Source: Planctomycetota bacterium
GTDB lineage: Bacteria; Planctomycetota; Phycisphaerae; Phycisphaerales; SM1A02
Length of the DNA stretch: 41,940 nt
Reading direction: 5' to 3'
Assembly: GCA_003671055.1 (NCBI GenBank)
Contig: QWPV01000019.1
Location: 1-41,940 of the forward strand
The notes beneath the pieces were generated by a model. That model did no database searches. It was given only the letters and a program-made list of their open reading frames with translations, and was not told where the DNA came from. Both the position numbers and the translations under genes were made by a program. Of the stretch, positions 20,544-27,579 are shown piece after piece. The first letter of the stretch is position 1, and each line of letters begins with the position of its first letter.

Positions 20544-20559
20544 GCATTCAAAAACAAAC

Positions 20560-20596
20560 TCGCGGAAACCTACTGTGGATCAGTGGGTTTCCGCGA
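20560..20596. terminator. Bidirectional terminator-like hairpin between gcvT and rpoD
   Basis: An almost perfect inverted repeat: left arm 20560-20575 (TCGCGGAAACCTACTG) pairs with right arm 20581-20596 around a five-base loop 20576-20580, giving a 16-bp stem with a single wobble or mismatch. It lies 17 bases after the gcvT stop and 45 bases after the convergent sigma factor stop. The plus-strand tail lacks a strong T-run, while an A-run (20550-20553) gives some T on the minus side. So it may stop transcription from the sigma factor gene better than from gcvT. Confidence 0.65.
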
Positions 20597-20640
20597 ATTG
20601 CCTCGCGATCCGCGAGTTGCTTTGTGCGTTGAATGCGTGC

Positions 20641-21732
20641 TTACGCTCTTCGTGCGCGCTGGAGCGCTGCGAATCGGATCTGGATGCCTTGCAATCGTGG
20701 GGATTGCGGGAGCGCGGGATGCAGCGCTGGTTGCGCGGTTCCGTTGTTGATGCGGGTTGGTGCGCGCGACGGTGATTGCATGGGCGTCAGGGCGGGGATC
20801 GCCACGATGCGCATTGTCGCTTGTTGCATAAGTCTTACTTGCGGACGCCCTGTTGGCGCTGTGGGCGCTGCGGGCGTTGCTTCTGGTCGCTTGTTGGGCG
20901 CTGTGCATTCGTCGTTGAGTCGTTGTTGAAGCCGCTTGAGAGCTTCGACTTCGATCTGTCGGACGCGCTCGCGCGTGAGACCAACTTCGTGACCGATTTG
21001 CTTCAGCGTGAGTGGCTCCTTGCCCTCGAGGCCGTAGCGGAGTCGTAACACTTTCGCGTCGCGCTCGTCGATCTCTTCGAGCATCTGGAGCACGAGACTG
21101 AGGTCTTCCTTCTTCGCCACCGTTTCTTCAGGCTTTGTTGCGCGGTGATCTTGGAAGAGTTCGTGGAGCTCAGCACCTTCGCCGTTTTCACCACCAGGTG
21201 ACTGGCTCGGTGCGTTGTAGGCCTTCAGTGCGCGGCGCACAATGAGCAGCTTACGCAACGGCAATTTCAGTTCGTCGGCGAGTTCTTGTGGAGTGGGATG
21301 ACGCTTCAGCCGTTCCTCAAGCTTGCGGCTCGCCTCGCGGCAGCGCGAGATGAGGTCGACCATGTACGCAGGAATGTGGATCGGCTGGACCGCGTTGATG
21401 AGCGTGCGCTTGATCGCTTGTTTGATCCACCACGATGCGTAGGTGGAGAACCGCGCACCTTGCGCTGGATCAAAGCCTTCGACCGCGCGGATCAAACCGA
21501 TGTTGCCTTCCTCGATGAGGTCGGACAGCGGCAGTCCACGGTTGGTGTAGTTCTTCGAGATGGAAATGACGAGCCGAAGGTTCGCGCGGATCATGCGATC
21601 CTTTGCGTCTCCATCGTTGTCATTCACAACACGCCAACCTAAGTCTTTCTCCTCAGCTGGTGTGAGGAGCGCGACTTCGTTGATTTCACGAAGATAGATC
21701 TGGAGTTCTGTTTGAAGAGACGAGCGACCCAT
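20641..21732 (-). CDS. rpoD: Primary-type sigma-70 factor (RpoD/SigA) with long C-terminal tail
   Basis: A 363-residue sigma-70 of group 1/2. Region 1.2 is at residues 8-30 ([20 protein letters not shown]). Region 2 runs to about 112, with [18 protein letters not shown] and the -10-recognition stretch [17 protein letters not shown]. Region 3 (about 120-175) is followed by region 4 with the -35-binding helix-turn-helix [20 protein letters not shown] at 242-261. Region 1.1 is absent. After region 4 ends near residue 275, an unusual 88-residue Pro/Ala/Arg-rich tail follows, while most family members stop within some ten residues. ATG at 21732 is used. No second sigma-70 of this type is in the window to compare. 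Confidence 0.9.
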
Positions 21733-21888: not shown

Positions 21889-21910
21889 AGTTCTTGAGGA
21901 CTCAAAAACT
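21889..21910. promoter_or_regulatory. 22-bp inverted repeat upstream of the sigma factor gene
   Basis: AGTTCTTGAG, two bases, then CTCAAAAACT: ten-base arms matching at nine positions. It lies 157 bases before the sigma factor start codon, in the range where a promoter and operator would be. The short two-base spacer fits a dimeric DNA-binding protein better than an RNA hairpin. The regulator is unknown. Confidence 0.35.
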
Positions 21911-22066
21911 CTTGGCGAAACAAAACCAAACAAAGGAAAACCTTGAGAGGCGCGCGAATCCTTCGCGGCTCTTTCATTCTTTCTGCTCCCTCGTTGCGCG
22001 AGCAATCGAGTAGCGGTGCATTCTCTAGGGCCCGAACTTCCTGCGGCACCCTGCGTCTAGTTGTCC

Positions 22067-22146
22067 AGAGGTGTAACCCTCTAGAGGCTGCGTCGACCTT
22101 TGCGGGTCGGGTCTTGAAGTCTACCCAACTCCCCGTCAACTGGGAG
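22067..22146. other. Gene-free stretch with three perfect consecutive hairpins
   Basis: The interval 21733-22489 has no gene I can support. Inside it are three five-base-pair perfect hairpins in a row: AGAGG/CCTCT (22067-22082), CGACC/GGTCG (22094-22109) and CTCCC/GGGAG (22129-22146). A larger imperfect stem (GCAGC...GCTGC) follows near 22200-22255. This could be a structured RNA, either free or in the sigma factor 5' leader on the minus strand. I found no landmark of RNase P RNA, tmRNA, SRP RNA or a known riboswitch. Confidence 0.3.
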
Positions 22147-22360
22147 CGTGATTCATACAGGCTGAGTGAAAGATTCCGATTATGCGGGGGGGCGAACAGC
22201 AGCTCTCAGAGGCTTTGCCGTAAAGGACTTGCATCGGGACGAAGCAAAGCTGCGGAAATCATAAACTGCACAGACGGACCTTGAGAATGAGGTAGAACTC
22301 CCGAACCCACAGTTCGCGCTCGGAACGCGGGTCACGATTGCGCTCGCGAATTGTGTTTCG

Positions 22361-22406
22361 ATCACTCGCTGCCGAGTTTGAGGAAGAGGGTTTTCTCTTC
22401 GCCTGC
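22361..22406. repeat. 46-bp direct repeat, left copy (M28 3'-end remnant)
   Basis: Identical at all 46 positions to 24253-24298, and 49 of 50 if four more bases are counted. On the minus strand it reads as the last 14 codons of the M28 peptidase plus stop (EEKTLFLKLGSE at the end), with no peptidase sequence attached beyond it. It contains the dyad GAAGAG-GGTTTT-CTCTTC at 22383-22400. It marks the left edge of an apparent 1.85-kb insertion. Confidence 0.85.
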
Positions 22407-22489
22407 ACGGTAGCGTGCACAGTGCGGGGAGAGAATTCCGTCGTCGATTGAGGATGTTCGTGAAAGTTCCATCAGACAGGAGATATTGG

Positions 22490-23503
22490 ATGAGAGTTGC
22501 CTCGTTGATTGAAAAATTCGGGTTGCAGGTCGTTCCGTGCGTAGTGGTCGGTGCATTCGGCGCGTTCGCCGAAGGATCCGCGTCGATCGACATCGCATCA
22601 CGAGCGACTACCGAAGGGTTAATCCATGACCTCGATGGCGATGGCTGCCCCGAAGGCCTGGAACAATTCACACAAAACGCGGAATCGTGGATCGGAGTGC
22701 GGATGTCGCTCGATGGTGCCGTCGTCCCACTGCAACGGCTGTCGCATGGCGAGTTGGTCGTCTGGCGCGCGTCAGGTACGGTCAACGACCTCGACGGCGA
22801 CTATCAGGCGGACTTCGTGATTGGCGTCATTCGCCGCGAACATAGTGGGCGAGGCGCATTGAGCGTTCGAGCGTACAGCGCATCCGACTTGACGCTCTTG
22901 GGACAACTCATCAACTCATGGGATGATGGCGGCGTGAGTGCGCCTTGGGTCGTTCAGGTTGCGGGCGACGTTGTGCCCGATGACGTGGTTGATAGCGAGG
23001 ATTTGGCTGTTGCCCTCACGGTGTTTTCCTCGGGGGGGATCATCGCGAGCGGATCGGTCGCGGTGGAAGCAGCGGCGGATAGGCTCGGTGACGGTTCAAT
23101 CGATCTTGGTGATGTTTTGCAATTGGCAGATGTGATCGCAAGTGGCTCAAGTTCGCAGGACGAGCTGCTTCAAGAAAGACTGGGTGAATTGGTTGAGGTT
23201 TCCGGTCTCTTTGGGCTCATACTGAGATGGTTTGGAGTCTTGAATTGCGCAGAGTGCCACGTTGAATATGCGGACGAGATGCAGCGGCACGCGGAATGGC
23301 TTGAAGATGCGAACGAACAGCTCGCCGACTGCAACGAATGTACCTCTAGCGTGAATTGTCCCATAGACGAAGTGATTCGTTGTGATAGGCTTTACAAGAG
23401 GTTGCTGCATGAGCATGCACTCCGCGTTCGCGACATCGCATCGGGCGCTGCCGGATGCATCCTCAAATGCTTCTCTCTCCCCAACATCCCGAGCCTCCCT
23501 TGA
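22490..23503 (+). CDS. Unknown exported protein with dockerin-like and Cys-rich regions
   Basis: A 337-residue protein of unknown function. ATG 22490 has a good ribosome binding site, AGGAG, seven bases upstream. A signal peptide is likely at about 1-28 (VVPCVVVGAFGAFAEG). Asp-rich calcium-binding-like loops follow: DLDGDGCPEG near 47 and DLDGDYQADF near 103, then two dockerin-like units near 168-225 (DDVVDSEDLAVAL and GDGSIDLGDVLQLADVI). The last 90 residues contain a short hydrophobic stretch and eight cysteines including C-A-E-C and C-N-E-C, suggesting a disulfide-bonded domain. It is the first of two genes between the 46-bp repeats, 11 bases before the next, so the two are probably co-transcribed. 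Confidence 0.65.
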   Translation: MRVASLIEKFGLQVVPCVVVGAFGAFAEGSASIDIASRATTEGLIHDLDGDGCPEGLEQFTQNAESWIGVRMSLDGAVVPLQRLSHGELVVWRASGTVNDLDGDYQADFVIGVIRREHSGRGALSVRAYSASDLTLLGQLINSWDDGGVSAPWVVQVAGDVVPDDVVDSEDLAVALTVFSSGGIIASGSVAVEAAADRLGDGSIDLGDVLQLADVIASGSSSQDELLQERLGELVEVSGLFGLILRWFGVLNCAECHVEYADEMQRHAEWLEDANEQLADCNECTSSVNCPIDEVIRCDRLYKRLLHEHALRVRDIASGAAGCILKCFSLPNIPSLP

Positions 23504-23514
23504 TCGGATCACGA

Positions 23515-24225
23515 ATGCGCCATGATCAAGGAGTTCTCTGCATCGCTTCCGCGTTGCTGTTGCTCACGTTGAGTGGAGTCTCGTGCAGCGAAGCTGGATC
23601 TGCGAGTGGCAATCGCGCTGCTACAGCAGACAGCGCAGACGTGAGTCGTCGACTTGAGTTGATCTGGTCTGGCCTCGCGTCGGAGAGTTCTGATGCTCGC
23701 GCGACGGCGCTGCAGGCACTGAGTGCGGATGGCGCGCTTGCATTTGAATCGTTCCCCGCCACATGGATCTCCGGGGGGGAAGCAAGCGATCTTTGGCTCT
23801 TCCCAAGCGGCGGCTTGGTCGAGTTTGAGAGCGGGCAGATCCTCGTGATCGCGGTAGCGCTGGACGAATTTGTAGGCAGGTCGACTTCCGATCCAGCAGA
23901 AGACGCGGCGCTGCTTTGGAGCGTGGAGCAACTTGGAACGCAATTTTGGAATGCCGCGAGCTCACTCACAACCGCCGAAGGTTCAAGCGCGCGCACGAAT
24001 GATTTCATCTACCTTGAGCGCTTGGGTGTGAGAAATAGCACACGTGCCTACGCTACCCTCTTACGCCAGATCGCATTGGAGAGGCTTCGAGCTATTGAGA
24101 CGGAGGAGGTCGACCAAGTCGAGCTCGCGCTCGCTCAGGATGCGCTCGTACAGGAGCGAAAGATTCTTGGGGACGGATATCGTGAGACGACTGCATTCAT
24201 GCGAAGGCAGGTTGGGGGCAGGTAG
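23515..24225 (+). CDS. Unknown predicted lipoprotein
   Basis: A 236-residue protein of unknown function. The N-terminus MRHDQGVLCIASALLLLTLS is a signal sequence ending in a lipobox-like SGVSC at residues 20-24, so membrane anchoring through Cys24 is likely. The mature part has a helical start (DVSRRLELIWSGLASESSDARA), a beta-rich middle (LWLFPSGGLVEFESGQILVIAVAL) and two long charged helices at the end. It begins 11 bases after the preceding unknown gene and ends 27 bases before the right copy of the 46-bp repeat. A longer in-frame start at 23455 would overlap that gene and hide the signal sequence. Confidence 0.6.
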   Translation: MRHDQGVLCIASALLLLTLSGVSCSEAGSASGNRAATADSADVSRRLELIWSGLASESSDARATALQALSADGALAFESFPATWISGGEASDLWLFPSGGLVEFESGQILVIAVALDEFVGRSTSDPAEDAALLWSVEQLGTQFWNAASSLTTAEGSSARTNDFIYLERLGVRNSTRAYATLLRQIALERLRAIETEEVDQVELALAQDALVQERKILGDGYRETTAFMRRQVGGR

Positions 24226-24252
24226 TGCGCCCTTTGTTCGCGTCCCGCTCAC

Positions 24253-24298
24253 ATCACTCGCTGCCGAGTTTGAGGAAGAGGGTTTTCTCTTCGCCTGC
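24253..24298. repeat. 46-bp direct repeat, right copy (3' end of M28 gene)
   Basis: The intact partner of 22361-22406. It consists of the stop codon and last 14 codons of the M28 peptidase gene plus one base beyond the stop. The dyad GAAGAG-GGTTTT-CTCTTC is at 24275-24292. Similarity to the left copy ends abruptly on both sides. Confidence 0.85.
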
Positions 24299-26194
24299 GC
24301 GGGTGATGACGATTTGCACTTCGCCTGATGGCTCGAGTTTGCGGAGTTCGCGCACGAGGTCTTCGCGGGTCTTGATCGCTTCCTTATTGAACTTCACCAC
24401 ATGATCGCCCTTGAGCACGCCGGCTTTGTCGGAGATTCCGTCCTTCGTGACATCGCTTACTTCGATGCCGGAGCCATCTTCTGCATCTTTGGTTCGCATG
24501 CCGATGCGCACGCGAATCGTCGTGCCGCGCATGGGTCCTGATTGATCGTCGAATTCGAAGCGTTCCGCGCGCTGCGCCATTTCCCACGCGAGGTCTTCCC
24601 ACAATCGCACTGCTTTGATGCCGCTCTCGCGATCGATGAGCTCGCTCACATCGCGTGAGGTGTGATAGTCCTCGTGGAAGTCGGCGATGATGCCGAAGAG
24701 GAACGGCACATTCACCGCGCGGAAACTCGCGTGATCGCTGCCGCCGCCGCCCATCGCTTCGTTGATGACGACGGTGCAACCACCGCGATCAAAGATTGGC
24801 TTCGCCCACTCAAGCATGCCCTTGGCGCTGTTGGCGCCGGTGACGCTGAGGCGATCCTTCGTCATGCGTCCGATCATGTCGAAGTTCATCATGAGCACGG
24901 TGTCCTTAAGTGGATACAACGGATGCTCGACATAGTGACGGCTGCCGTTGAGTCCGCTCTCTTCAGCGGTGAATCCCATGAACAGCACCGAGCGAAGATT
25001 CGCATCAGCAGGTGCAGCCGCGTACTTCGCGCTGAGATCTTCCGCAATGATCATCACGCCCGCAACGCCCGATGCATTGTCGTCCGCGCCTGGGTGCAAC
25101 TTGCCTGGGCCTTCACGCGAGCCGAAGTCGCCATTGCCGAGGTGATCGAGGTGACCGCCAACGATGATGTATTCGCTCGCAAGCGTTCCCTTGCCCTTAA
25201 GGATGCCGATGATGTTCTCGGCCTTCGTCTTCTTTTCTTCGTAGGTCGCGCTCACTGCGGCGGTTGCGCCTGTGAGATCGAAGCTTGCGCCAGCGTTGTC
25301 TGCTTCAGTACGCAGCGCCATGATGGAGCGGCTCTTTGGATCTGCAGCTTGCAGCACGCGATCCGCAGCATCTGCACTCATCATGAATACGGGCATCTGC
25401 ACGAGGCTTCGTCCACCCGAGGTGGTCAGGCTTGTCGCGCGAGGATCGTCTGCTCCTGGTGGATTGATGACGATGATCGCGGAAGGTTTGCGCTTGGCGA
25501 TTGCAGCGAGTTTGCCTTGAAAACCAGCCTGTGCCGACCAACCATCGCCGCCACTCCACTTACTCTTGCCTGCTTCATCCATGGGTTCAAAGCGGAAGCA
25601 CAGCGCGACTTTTCCTTCGAGGCTGTGATCAGCCGTGAAGCTTGTGTAACCCTCGGGGCCTTGTTCAATGCCATAGCCAACGAATGCGATGCCGCCTTCT
25701 GCATTGCCTTCACTACCGAGACCTGAGAGTTGGACATCTTGATTCGTAACGAGTGAGAACGCGGCGCCACCAGTTGGCGTGATGCTCACGGATTGATCCT
25801 TCGCAACGCGACGACCACCGAGATCGAATGCTTGTCGATACGTTGCGGGTGAGCCATCGGAACTTGGAACACCTGGTTCGATGTTCGCGCGCTTCAGCCA
25901 GTACTCCATGTAATCCATCGCAAACTCCATCCCGGGAGTTCCTGGAAGACGACCGCCCATCCACGGGCTCGAGAGCACGATGACATGTTCGTTGAAGCGC
26001 TGCGTGTCGATCGGGAGACCGAGAATGACCTCGTGAAGTTTCGGTGTGATCGGCGTGAGCGCACTGTTGTCGGTTGCAGTTCCGCCATCTTGGGCTGGCA
26101 CTGCAGCAGGTGCGTCACTGAAGAGCGCGGTTTGCGCGAAGGATGCGCTTGCGGCGAGAATGAAGGAAGATGCGACGGCGAATGAAGTCTTCAT
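24254..26194 (-). CDS. Exported M28 zinc aminopeptidase with C-terminal PDZ domain
   Basis: A 646-residue exported metallopeptidase. The signal peptide is residues 1-21 (MKTSFAVASSFILAASASFA). A protease-associated-type insert (about 150-300) precedes the M28 core with its two-zinc ligands: His in GGHLDHLGNG, Asp in GADDNASGV, Glu-Glu in FTAEESGLNGS, Asp in NFDMIGRM and His in DYHTSRD. The last 95 residues form a PDZ domain (DGISDKAGVLKGDHVVKFN). It probably trims peptides in the periplasm. ATG 26194 gives the best signal peptide; ATG 26206 adds four residues. Its 3' end is the right copy of the 46-bp repeat. The start region overlaps that of the divergent gene. Confidence 0.9.
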   Translation of the reverse strand: MKTSFAVASSFILAASASFAQTALFSDAPAAVPAQDGGTATDNSALTPITPKLHEVILGLPIDTQRFNEHVIVLSSPWMGGRLPGTPGMEFAMDYMEYWLKRANIEPGVPSSDGSPATYRQAFDLGGRRVAKDQSVSITPTGGAAFSLVTNQDVQLSGLGSEGNAEGGIAFVGYGIEQGPEGYTSFTADHSLEGKVALCFRFEPMDEAGKSKWSGGDGWSAQAGFQGKLAAIAKRKPSAIIVINPPGADDPRATSLTTSGGRSLVQMPVFMMSADAADRVLQAADPKSRSIMALRTEADNAGASFDLTGATAAVSATYEEKKTKAENIIGILKGKGTLASEYIIVGGHLDHLGNGDFGSREGPGKLHPGADDNASGVAGVMIIAEDLSAKYAAAPADANLRSVLFMGFTAEESGLNGSRHYVEHPLYPLKDTVLMMNFDMIGRMTKDRLSVTGANSAKGMLEWAKPIFDRGGCTVVINEAMGGGGSDHASFRAVNVPFLFGIIADFHEDYHTSRDVSELIDRESGIKAVRLWEDLAWEMAQRAERFEFDDQSGPMRGTTIRVRIGMRTKDAEDGSGIEVSDVTKDGISDKAGVLKGDHVVKFNKEAIKTREDLVRELRKLEPSGEVQIVITRAGEEKTLFLKLGSE

Positions 26195-27579
26195 GCTGGA
26201 TCTCATCGAGGTTCTCTGCAACTGCGTTGATCGCAGTGCTGTGTGTGTGGGTTGGCATTGTGCCGCAATCTCACGCGCTGCATGTGGCTGTCGCAGCAGA
26301 AATGCCGCGAGAATCGTGCTTTTTTCGCAGCGCGCACCCGCAAGACGGACCACACATCGATCTGCATGTCCGCGTTGAAGCCGATCGTGTGCTGCTGGAG
26401 ATCGGCATCAATCTCGTGTTTCTCGATTGGCTCGGCGAGTTTCCTCGGGAAGATGCTGAACGCGTCGATGCGTCGGAATTACCGAGCGTTGCCAAGCGGC
26501 TCGAGCGCGTTTTCGCGGAGCGCGTGCGCGTGACGGCCGATGGCGTTGCGCTGACGCCCGAGATCACTGAGATCGGCATCAACGATCCAGACGAAGCGCT
26601 GCTTCCGCTCTTTCCGGTGAGCGGTTGGCGCGGATTGCGGAAACTCAAACTTGAAGTCTCTTACGAACTCGTGACGACAGCGCATCCGTTGAAGACGGTG
26701 GACGAGGTTGCGTTGTTGTGGCCGTTCTATCCGCCTGATCTCTTGTCGCTTGAAGTCCCGCAGCCTCCGCTTGAGATCGCCGCGGAGTGGAGTGGTGAAG
26801 GATTACGCACGCCGATCACGCTGCGCAGCGCGTCGCCTGAGTATCGCTGGCGCAGCGGTGTATCGAGCCTTGATGCGCGAATGGCGCGATTGCCGCCGAT
26901 TCCTACGGCGGCGCTTCCGCTCATTCCAAGTTGGTGCATGCTTGCGATCGTTGTTGGCGCGATCGTTGCGCTCGGTGGATATGTGCTGAAGCGCCCGCGT
27001 GTTGGCGCGCTCGCAGCCATCGCGTTGGCGAGTTCAATCGCCATCACAAGGCCTGCGATGTTCCCACGCCTCGCGATTGGATCTGCAGGCATTGCAGTCC
27101 CTGATGATGCTGCGCTAAGCGAGATTTCTAGTGCTTTGCTGACAAATGTCTATCGCGCGTTCGATGCAGATGAAGAGTCTGCGACGTACGACGCGCTCGC
27201 TCGCTCTGTGAGTGGTCCACTCTTAGAAAAGATGTATCGCGATGTGCGCGCGAGTCTCGTGGTGGAAGAAGAAGAGGGCGCGATGAGTCGCGTGCTTGCG
27301 GTGGATGTGGGCGCGATCGTCATTGAGAACGCGATCTCGTTCACATCGCAAGAGGGTCATCCAGTCGTTGCAATGACAGCACGCATCGCGTGGAGAGTCG
27401 ATGGCCGAGTCACGCACTGGGGGCACACGCACGATCGATCCAATGCGTATGAAGGACGATTCGAGATCGCGTCGCTTCCGGAAGGATGGCGCATTGGAAA
27501 AGCCGACGTGCTCTCGCAACGACGAATTGATGGTGCGCCAGTCGTGCCGATTGATCCTGGAGCGGATGACGAGCTTTAG
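26182..27579 (+). CDS. Unknown exported membrane-anchored protein
   Basis: A 465-residue protein without a recognised family. The signal peptide is residues 1-32 (ATALIAVLCVWVGIVPQSHA). A beta-rich extracytoplasmic part (about 40-240) contains HIDLHVRVEADRVLLEIGIN. Two hydrophobic segments lie near 255-277 (CMLAIVVGAIVALGGYVL) and 282-300. The last 145 residues (SSALLTNVYRAFDADEESAT onward) are acidic and form a soluble domain with a beta-sheet ending. Its start codon shares a 13-bp palindrome with that of the divergent M28 gene. AAGGA lies 14 bases upstream, farther than usual; ATG at 26170 is an alternative. The 3' end overlaps the next convergent gene by four bases. Confidence 0.65.
   Translation: MKSSCWISSRFSATALIAVLCVWVGIVPQSHALHVAVAAEMPRESCFFRSAHPQDGPHIDLHVRVEADRVLLEIGINLVFLDWLGEFPREDAERVDASELPSVAKRLERVFAERVRVTADGVALTPEITEIGINDPDEALLPLFPVSGWRGLRKLKLEVSYELVTTAHPLKTVDEVALLWPFYPPDLLSLEVPQPPLEIAAEWSGEGLRTPITLRSASPEYRWRSGVSSLDARMARLPPIPTAALPLIPSWCMLAIVVGAIVALGGYVLKRPRVGALAAIALASSIAITRPAMFPRLAIGSAGIAVPDDAALSEISSALLTNVYRAFDADEESATYDALARSVSGPLLEKMYRDVRASLVVEEEEGAMSRVLAVDVGAIVIENAISFTSQEGHPVVAMTARIAWRVDGRVTHWGHTHDRSNAYEGRFEIASLPEGWRIGKADVLSQRRIDGAPVVPIDPGADDEL

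Follow-up and report, generated by a model that had tools for sequence, protein, structure and literature searches.

A gene pair between 46-base direct repeats stands in place of a conserved UVR-motif gene beside an M28 peptidase gene in a planctomycete

In the 41,940-base stretch of planctomycete DNA that was analysed as a whole (the window), a block of two genes bracketed by a 46-base direct repeat lies between a sigma-factor gene and the 3' end of a gene for an M28 peptidase. A resident gene with a UVR motif is conserved in this interval among relatives, including the congeners; it is missing here and the pair stands in its place, and the locus is therefore a replacement rather than an insertion into an otherwise intact locus. 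We tentatively favor, at nearly an even chance, a lineage-specific course of events in which the UVR gene decayed and the pair was then joined at the M28 end with duplication of the 46 bases. The locus looks like a modest local rearrangement and not a dedicated mobile element. On a small scale it illustrates the turnover, at a conserved locus, of genes whose exported products belong to no known family, and it offers a case of a UVR-motif gene next to a sigma factor that is dispensable in one lineage.

Repeat pair and enclosed genes

The first-pass annotation described two identical 46-base stretches, the right one consisting of the M28 coding end, the stop codon and one extra base, and the left one lacking any M28 gene. 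Each of these points was borne out: the identity is exact (46 of 46 bases), the M28 stop TGA at 24254-24256 falls inside the right copy, and no M28 gene is attached to the left copy (Table 1). The pair stretches to 50 positions with one mismatch and is the best direct repeat within the window, where a search at seed 14 and minimum length 26 bases returned a runner-up family of 29 bases at 79% and no further family at these settings. The proposed search for additional 46-mers found none besides these two in the draft genome (2,845,198 bases in 100 contigs); the central 27-mer occurs there at only 2 sites with up to 3 mismatches, and the reversed 27-mer pattern, used as a control, gave 0 matches. 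No difference separates the two copies over 46 bases, whereas identity with the congeners is 83-85% over 46-48 bases, and this disparity indicates that the duplication probably postdates the divergence from the congeners, provided that the copies have not been homogenized. At 6.5% divergence, the chance of observing 46 identical bases would be about 0.045.

Table 1. Features of the locus between the sigma-factor and M28 peptidase genes (positions in the window)
Feature	Position	Strand	Basis or remark
Sigma-factor gene, left neighbor	20641-21732	-	Open reading frame, synteny in relatives; named by reading the protein
Conserved region upstream of the sigma gene	21901-22194		75-82% identity with congeners
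Possible decayed promoter and 5' end of the lost UVR gene	22195-22360	+	Anchored alignment
Left (orphan) repeat copy	22361-22406	+	Without peptidase attached
Block between the repeats, 1846 bp	22407-24252		GC like the surroundings
Gene 1, predicted exported protein, 337 aa	22490-23503	+	Open reading frame list; signal-peptide-like N-terminus by eye
Gene 2, putative lipoprotein, 236 aa	23515-24225	+	Open reading frame list, read by eye
Right repeat copy	24253-24298	-	Final 42 coding bases of M28 plus the stop codon and one base
M28 peptidase with C-terminal PDZ domain	24254-26209	-	Open reading frame, domain scan

The two genes lie in tandem on the + strand between the repeat copies. Gene 1 probably starts at 22490, and gene 2 probably at 23515 rather than at the longer open-frame start at 23455. 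Both had been described earlier as predicted exported proteins of unknown function, and our scans named no family for either: gene 1, in which dockerin/EF-hand-like DxDxDG stretches can be seen by eye, has only sub-cut-off matches in Pfam and none in NCBIfam, and the same holds for gene 2. Single-sequence structure models of the two proteins reached mean pLDDT values of 45.9 and 44.2, which are too low for a fold search. No integration or transfer genes were recognized in the block, in line with the earlier remark that it holds no integrase. GC content at the three codon positions is 0.653/0.436/0.623 in gene 1 and 0.631/0.517/0.610 in gene 2, compared with ranges of 0.598-0.673, 0.405-0.486 and 0.608-0.719 in five neighboring genes; only the second codon position of gene 2 (0.517) falls outside these ranges, and composition gives no mark of foreign origin for the pair.

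No further match to either gene turned up in the draft genome of the window. A search for homologues next to other genes had been suggested, and it located distant homologues of gene 2 elsewhere in the class and weak matches only for gene 1. For gene 1, the 40 relatives gave no match, and weak matches came from 4 other genomes among the 397 of the class, with E values of 5.5e-5 to 1e-3 that apply to one genome each and are near chance over 397; three of the four fall wholly within residues 145-246, a stretch of dockerin-like appearance, and one contains an internal stop. Gene 2 was matched among the 40 relatives only in G003, on another contig and at 24%, and in the 397 genomes of the class two others match, G114 (26%) and G198 (short, weaker and with an internal stop). 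Direct comparison with phmmer backs the homologues in G003 and G114 (E values of 1.9e-8 and 7.6e-9 among the few open reading frames given), and the open reading frame of the G198 locus, L060, was not supported in this comparison. These homologues in G003 and G114 have different neighbors in the stretches read, and a match to gene 1 is absent from G003, G114 and G198. The pattern suggests that gene 2 belongs to a fast-changing family. The distant relatives at L029:7564-8328 and L059:1063-2181 are putative lipoproteins beside unrelated genes, and the neighbor of the relative in G003 reads as an aroB-like gene.

The locus in relatives and the missing UVR gene

In blastn comparisons the loci of three congeners match the window on both sides and differ in the sigma-M28 interval, which in each of them holds one open frame of 256-264 codons that is convergent with M28. 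The G002 protein, the one that was scanned, has a UvrB/UvrC motif at its end (PF02151, 22.2 bits against a cut-off of 21.5). With the M28 protein as query, 46 loci were collected from genome_contigs, and the order sigma-UVR-M28 was found in all 18 that have both M28 and sigma, 3 of which match the contigs of the three congeners. Another locus, L080, has M28 and UVR with no sigma match before the contig end; the other 27, which are at most 50% identical to the M28 query, have neither UVR nor sigma, and some are incomplete (e.g. L079). Among the 19 loci with UVR, 18 have 11-87 bases between the M28 stop and the UVR match, and L070 has 1,879. This locus, from a more distant relative, holds another two-gene block of about 1.9 kb in the M28/UVR junction (L070:9974-11853), with genes that read from their open frames as pseudouridine-synthase-like and rhodanese-like and with no strong direct repeat at its borders.

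The UVR gene had no match in the draft genome of the window (G000), which is 95.77% complete, so that a UVR gene elsewhere could be missing from the assembly; 28 of the 41 genomes searched have one. The locus had been described as an insertion, for which related genomes might have shown an empty site with a single repeat copy. No such site was found in the relatives compared, where the place is occupied by the conserved UVR gene. That the pair is lineage-specific among the genomes compared holds, and the pair is not a constant occupant of this place, as the three congeners lack it at this site; a clean insertion is not supported, since the congeners' site holds a UVR gene that was not found in this genome. 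Each congener has one match to the 46-mer, at its own M28 end, and a single copy at this position was found in all 19 of the relatives' loci examined. In a separate observation, the UVR-motif gene at L027:7324-8082 (253 codons), beside a sigma-factor gene, has no match in NCBIfam, and a literature search on the UVR domain and sigma factors in Planctomycetes found no paper.

To the left of the orphan repeat, a possible remnant of the UVR gene was examined by alignments anchored at the conserved AAAGATTCCG and scored against dinucleotide shuffles. With the anchored scores of the three congeners added up, 1 of 1000 shuffles did as well, for 22195-22324 and likewise for 22195-22360. Taken singly, G001, G002 and G003 gave 227, 15 and 1 of 1000 shuffles for the shorter stretch and 60, 7 and 14 of 1000 for the longer one, and among the congeners themselves all six comparisons came out at 0 of 300. 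In the congeners the start codon lies 105, 104 and 104 bases from the anchor, and by hand count 105 bases separate the anchor in the window from an ACG at 22274-22276, where the UVR ATG is expected. Free local alignment of 22220-22360 with the three congeners was equalled by 651, 33 and 28 of 1000 shuffles, the within-gene stretch 22285-22360 alone was at chance (672, 137 and 294 of 1000), and a profile search of the window with four models of the congeners' UVR start returned nothing at the left flank. Judged from these comparisons of sequence, the UVR promoter region is likely to have been kept, and a decayed UVR 5' end at the left flank is plausible. The possible remnant is 38-42% identical to the congeners, which are mutually 52-62% identical there; for the adjoining conserved stretch the corresponding values are 75-82% and 79-82%. 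Decay of the UVR gene before the pair came would fit the lower identity of the remnant, these being low identities in an uncertain alignment.

Origin of the block

In the order of events that we infer, loss of the UVR start codon and of most of the gene would have come first, so that a decayed 5' end remained beside the M28 3' end. The two genes, probably derived from a related bacterium, would later have been joined as a block exactly at the M28 end, and the 46 bases would have been doubled on joining if the incoming DNA carried an M28 3' end and crossed over there; a staggered break that was filled in may alternatively have produced the doubling. M28 would remain intact throughout, and the incoming pair may be served by the former UVR promoter region. 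The predicted intermediate was not found in any strain, and nothing pertinent to partial gene duplication was present among the literature matches listed. A dedicated recombinase is unnecessary in this scheme, and we favor recombination or repair of an ordinary kind at the M28 end once the UVR gene was lost, because no suitable recombinase and no conserved dyad was found and because the L070 junction takes a pair without a strong repeat. The tolerance of the M28/UVR junction for other insertions, as in L070, resembles an ordinary lineage-specific replacement; unlike such a replacement, the present locus has lost its resident gene and carries a 46-base copy of the neighbor's end at one border.

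The loss of the UVR gene and the presence of the pair coincide in place, and a single event could explain both if illegitimate recombination or template switching put the pair in the place of the UVR gene, with the left 46-mer as templated filler from the M28 end. We consider this somewhat unlikely, as the filler would need to come from the end bordering the other junction and what may remain of the UVR gene seems to predate the duplication. In addition, the 27 bases at 24226-24252 compare with the congeners' intergenic DNA at the level of chance (104, 1000 and 970 of 1000 shuffles).

Site-specific integration was proposed in the first-pass annotation, which suggested a cassette mobilized in trans. 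In the fuller form of this reading, the block would be a cassette or decayed integrative element, the 46-mers would be attL and attR, and a recombinase acting in trans would since have been lost. Several features accord with it: direct repeats stand at both borders, one of them restoring the 3' end of the target gene, the far-side repeat is identical and the cargo between them is unrelated. Gene ends are moreover the usual sites of tyrosine recombinases, according to PMC5704250. A suitable recombinase was sought in the element and, for the tyrosine and resolvase families, in the draft genome, and was not found. Two tyrosine recombinases were detected in the draft genome, both best matched by XerC/XerD models, with scores below the cut-offs for scanned stretches that comprised C-terminal parts only; the resolvase family had no match there, while its control matched in 10 of 14 genomes.

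The dyad GAAGAG-N6-CTCTTC, which had been likened to the core of a recombinase site, is present in the 46-mer as stated and overlaps the codons for EEKTLF. It occurs in only 1 of 19 relatives' M28 ends when the last 90 bases are searched, and its reading as a conserved recombinase core is rejected on this count; a search confined to the last 45 M28 bases, which leaves out some of the matching stretch in the 16 more distant loci, gave the same count. Inverted repeats of 6 bases in general, with 3-10 bases between the arms, are found in 5 of the 19 M28 ends. As RNA, the 46-mer folds unremarkably on the + strand (z = -0.28) and has a mild tendency to fold on the - strand (z = -1.82). The same attachment site was not recovered in other elements, as the genome holds no further copy and viral contigs no exact 46-mer. 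The cargo was likewise not found among mobile DNA: plasmids and phages gave no match to the block DNA, and a protein search of viral contigs, by a method that finds close relatives only, confirmed no relative. With XerC/XerD-like proteins only, no resolvase, a dyad in 1 of 19 relatives, no further 46-mer and a composition like the surroundings, the recombinase-site reading is weak, and we regard site-specific integration as unlikely.

The outline is nevertheless similar to that of a cis-mobilizable element (CIME), described in PMC5704250 as having lost its integration and transfer genes while keeping attL and attR. As in a CIME so described (PMC5704250), short direct repeats from the end of a target gene bracket an integrase-free cargo. 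Unlike the CIMEs described there (PMC5704250), the locus has no integrase-bearing element at the site and no third copy of the site, its block contains no recognized integration or transfer gene, and the resident gene has also been lost. Because a suitable recombinase was sought and not found, we do not file the locus as a cis-mobilizable element in the sense given there. A more specific proposal is that the pair forms a cassette without integrase, moved in trans, whose site is the 3' end of a protein-coding gene; in this Phycisphaerae-like lineage it would have displaced the UVR gene. We consider this very improbable. Such a cassette is not known to have been described from this group. If true, it would point to gene pairs being mobilized in trans in planctomycetes, a reading that the evidence does not favor.

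The genome of the window is a 100-contig draft, the records of the congeners are MAGs, so that it too is perhaps a metagenome assembly, and the repeat is short enough for ambiguity in an assembly graph. That the assembly falsely joined two strains or sequences at the 46-mer is nonetheless quite improbable, given that both junctions lie on one contig of even composition and neither gene occurs elsewhere in the genome. Least probable of all is a tandem second M28 on the left that was replaced except for its last 46 bases, an alternative offered earlier with which the orientation of the left copy would agree but which gains no support, as blastn against the congeners' loci shows M28 DNA only at the left 46-mer and the M28 gene, with no further M28 DNA in the block, and all 19 relatives have the single copy.

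The flanking genes

The M28 start at 26209 is a choice made here, the longest open reading frame beginning at 26353, and the orthologues in the three congeners are 85-87% identical at the protein level. On the other side of the locus, the GcvT-like and sigma-factor genes converge, and the gap between them contains an inverted repeat (20557-20599) with 19-base arms that are 89% complementary and 5 bases between them, which is perhaps a shared terminator.
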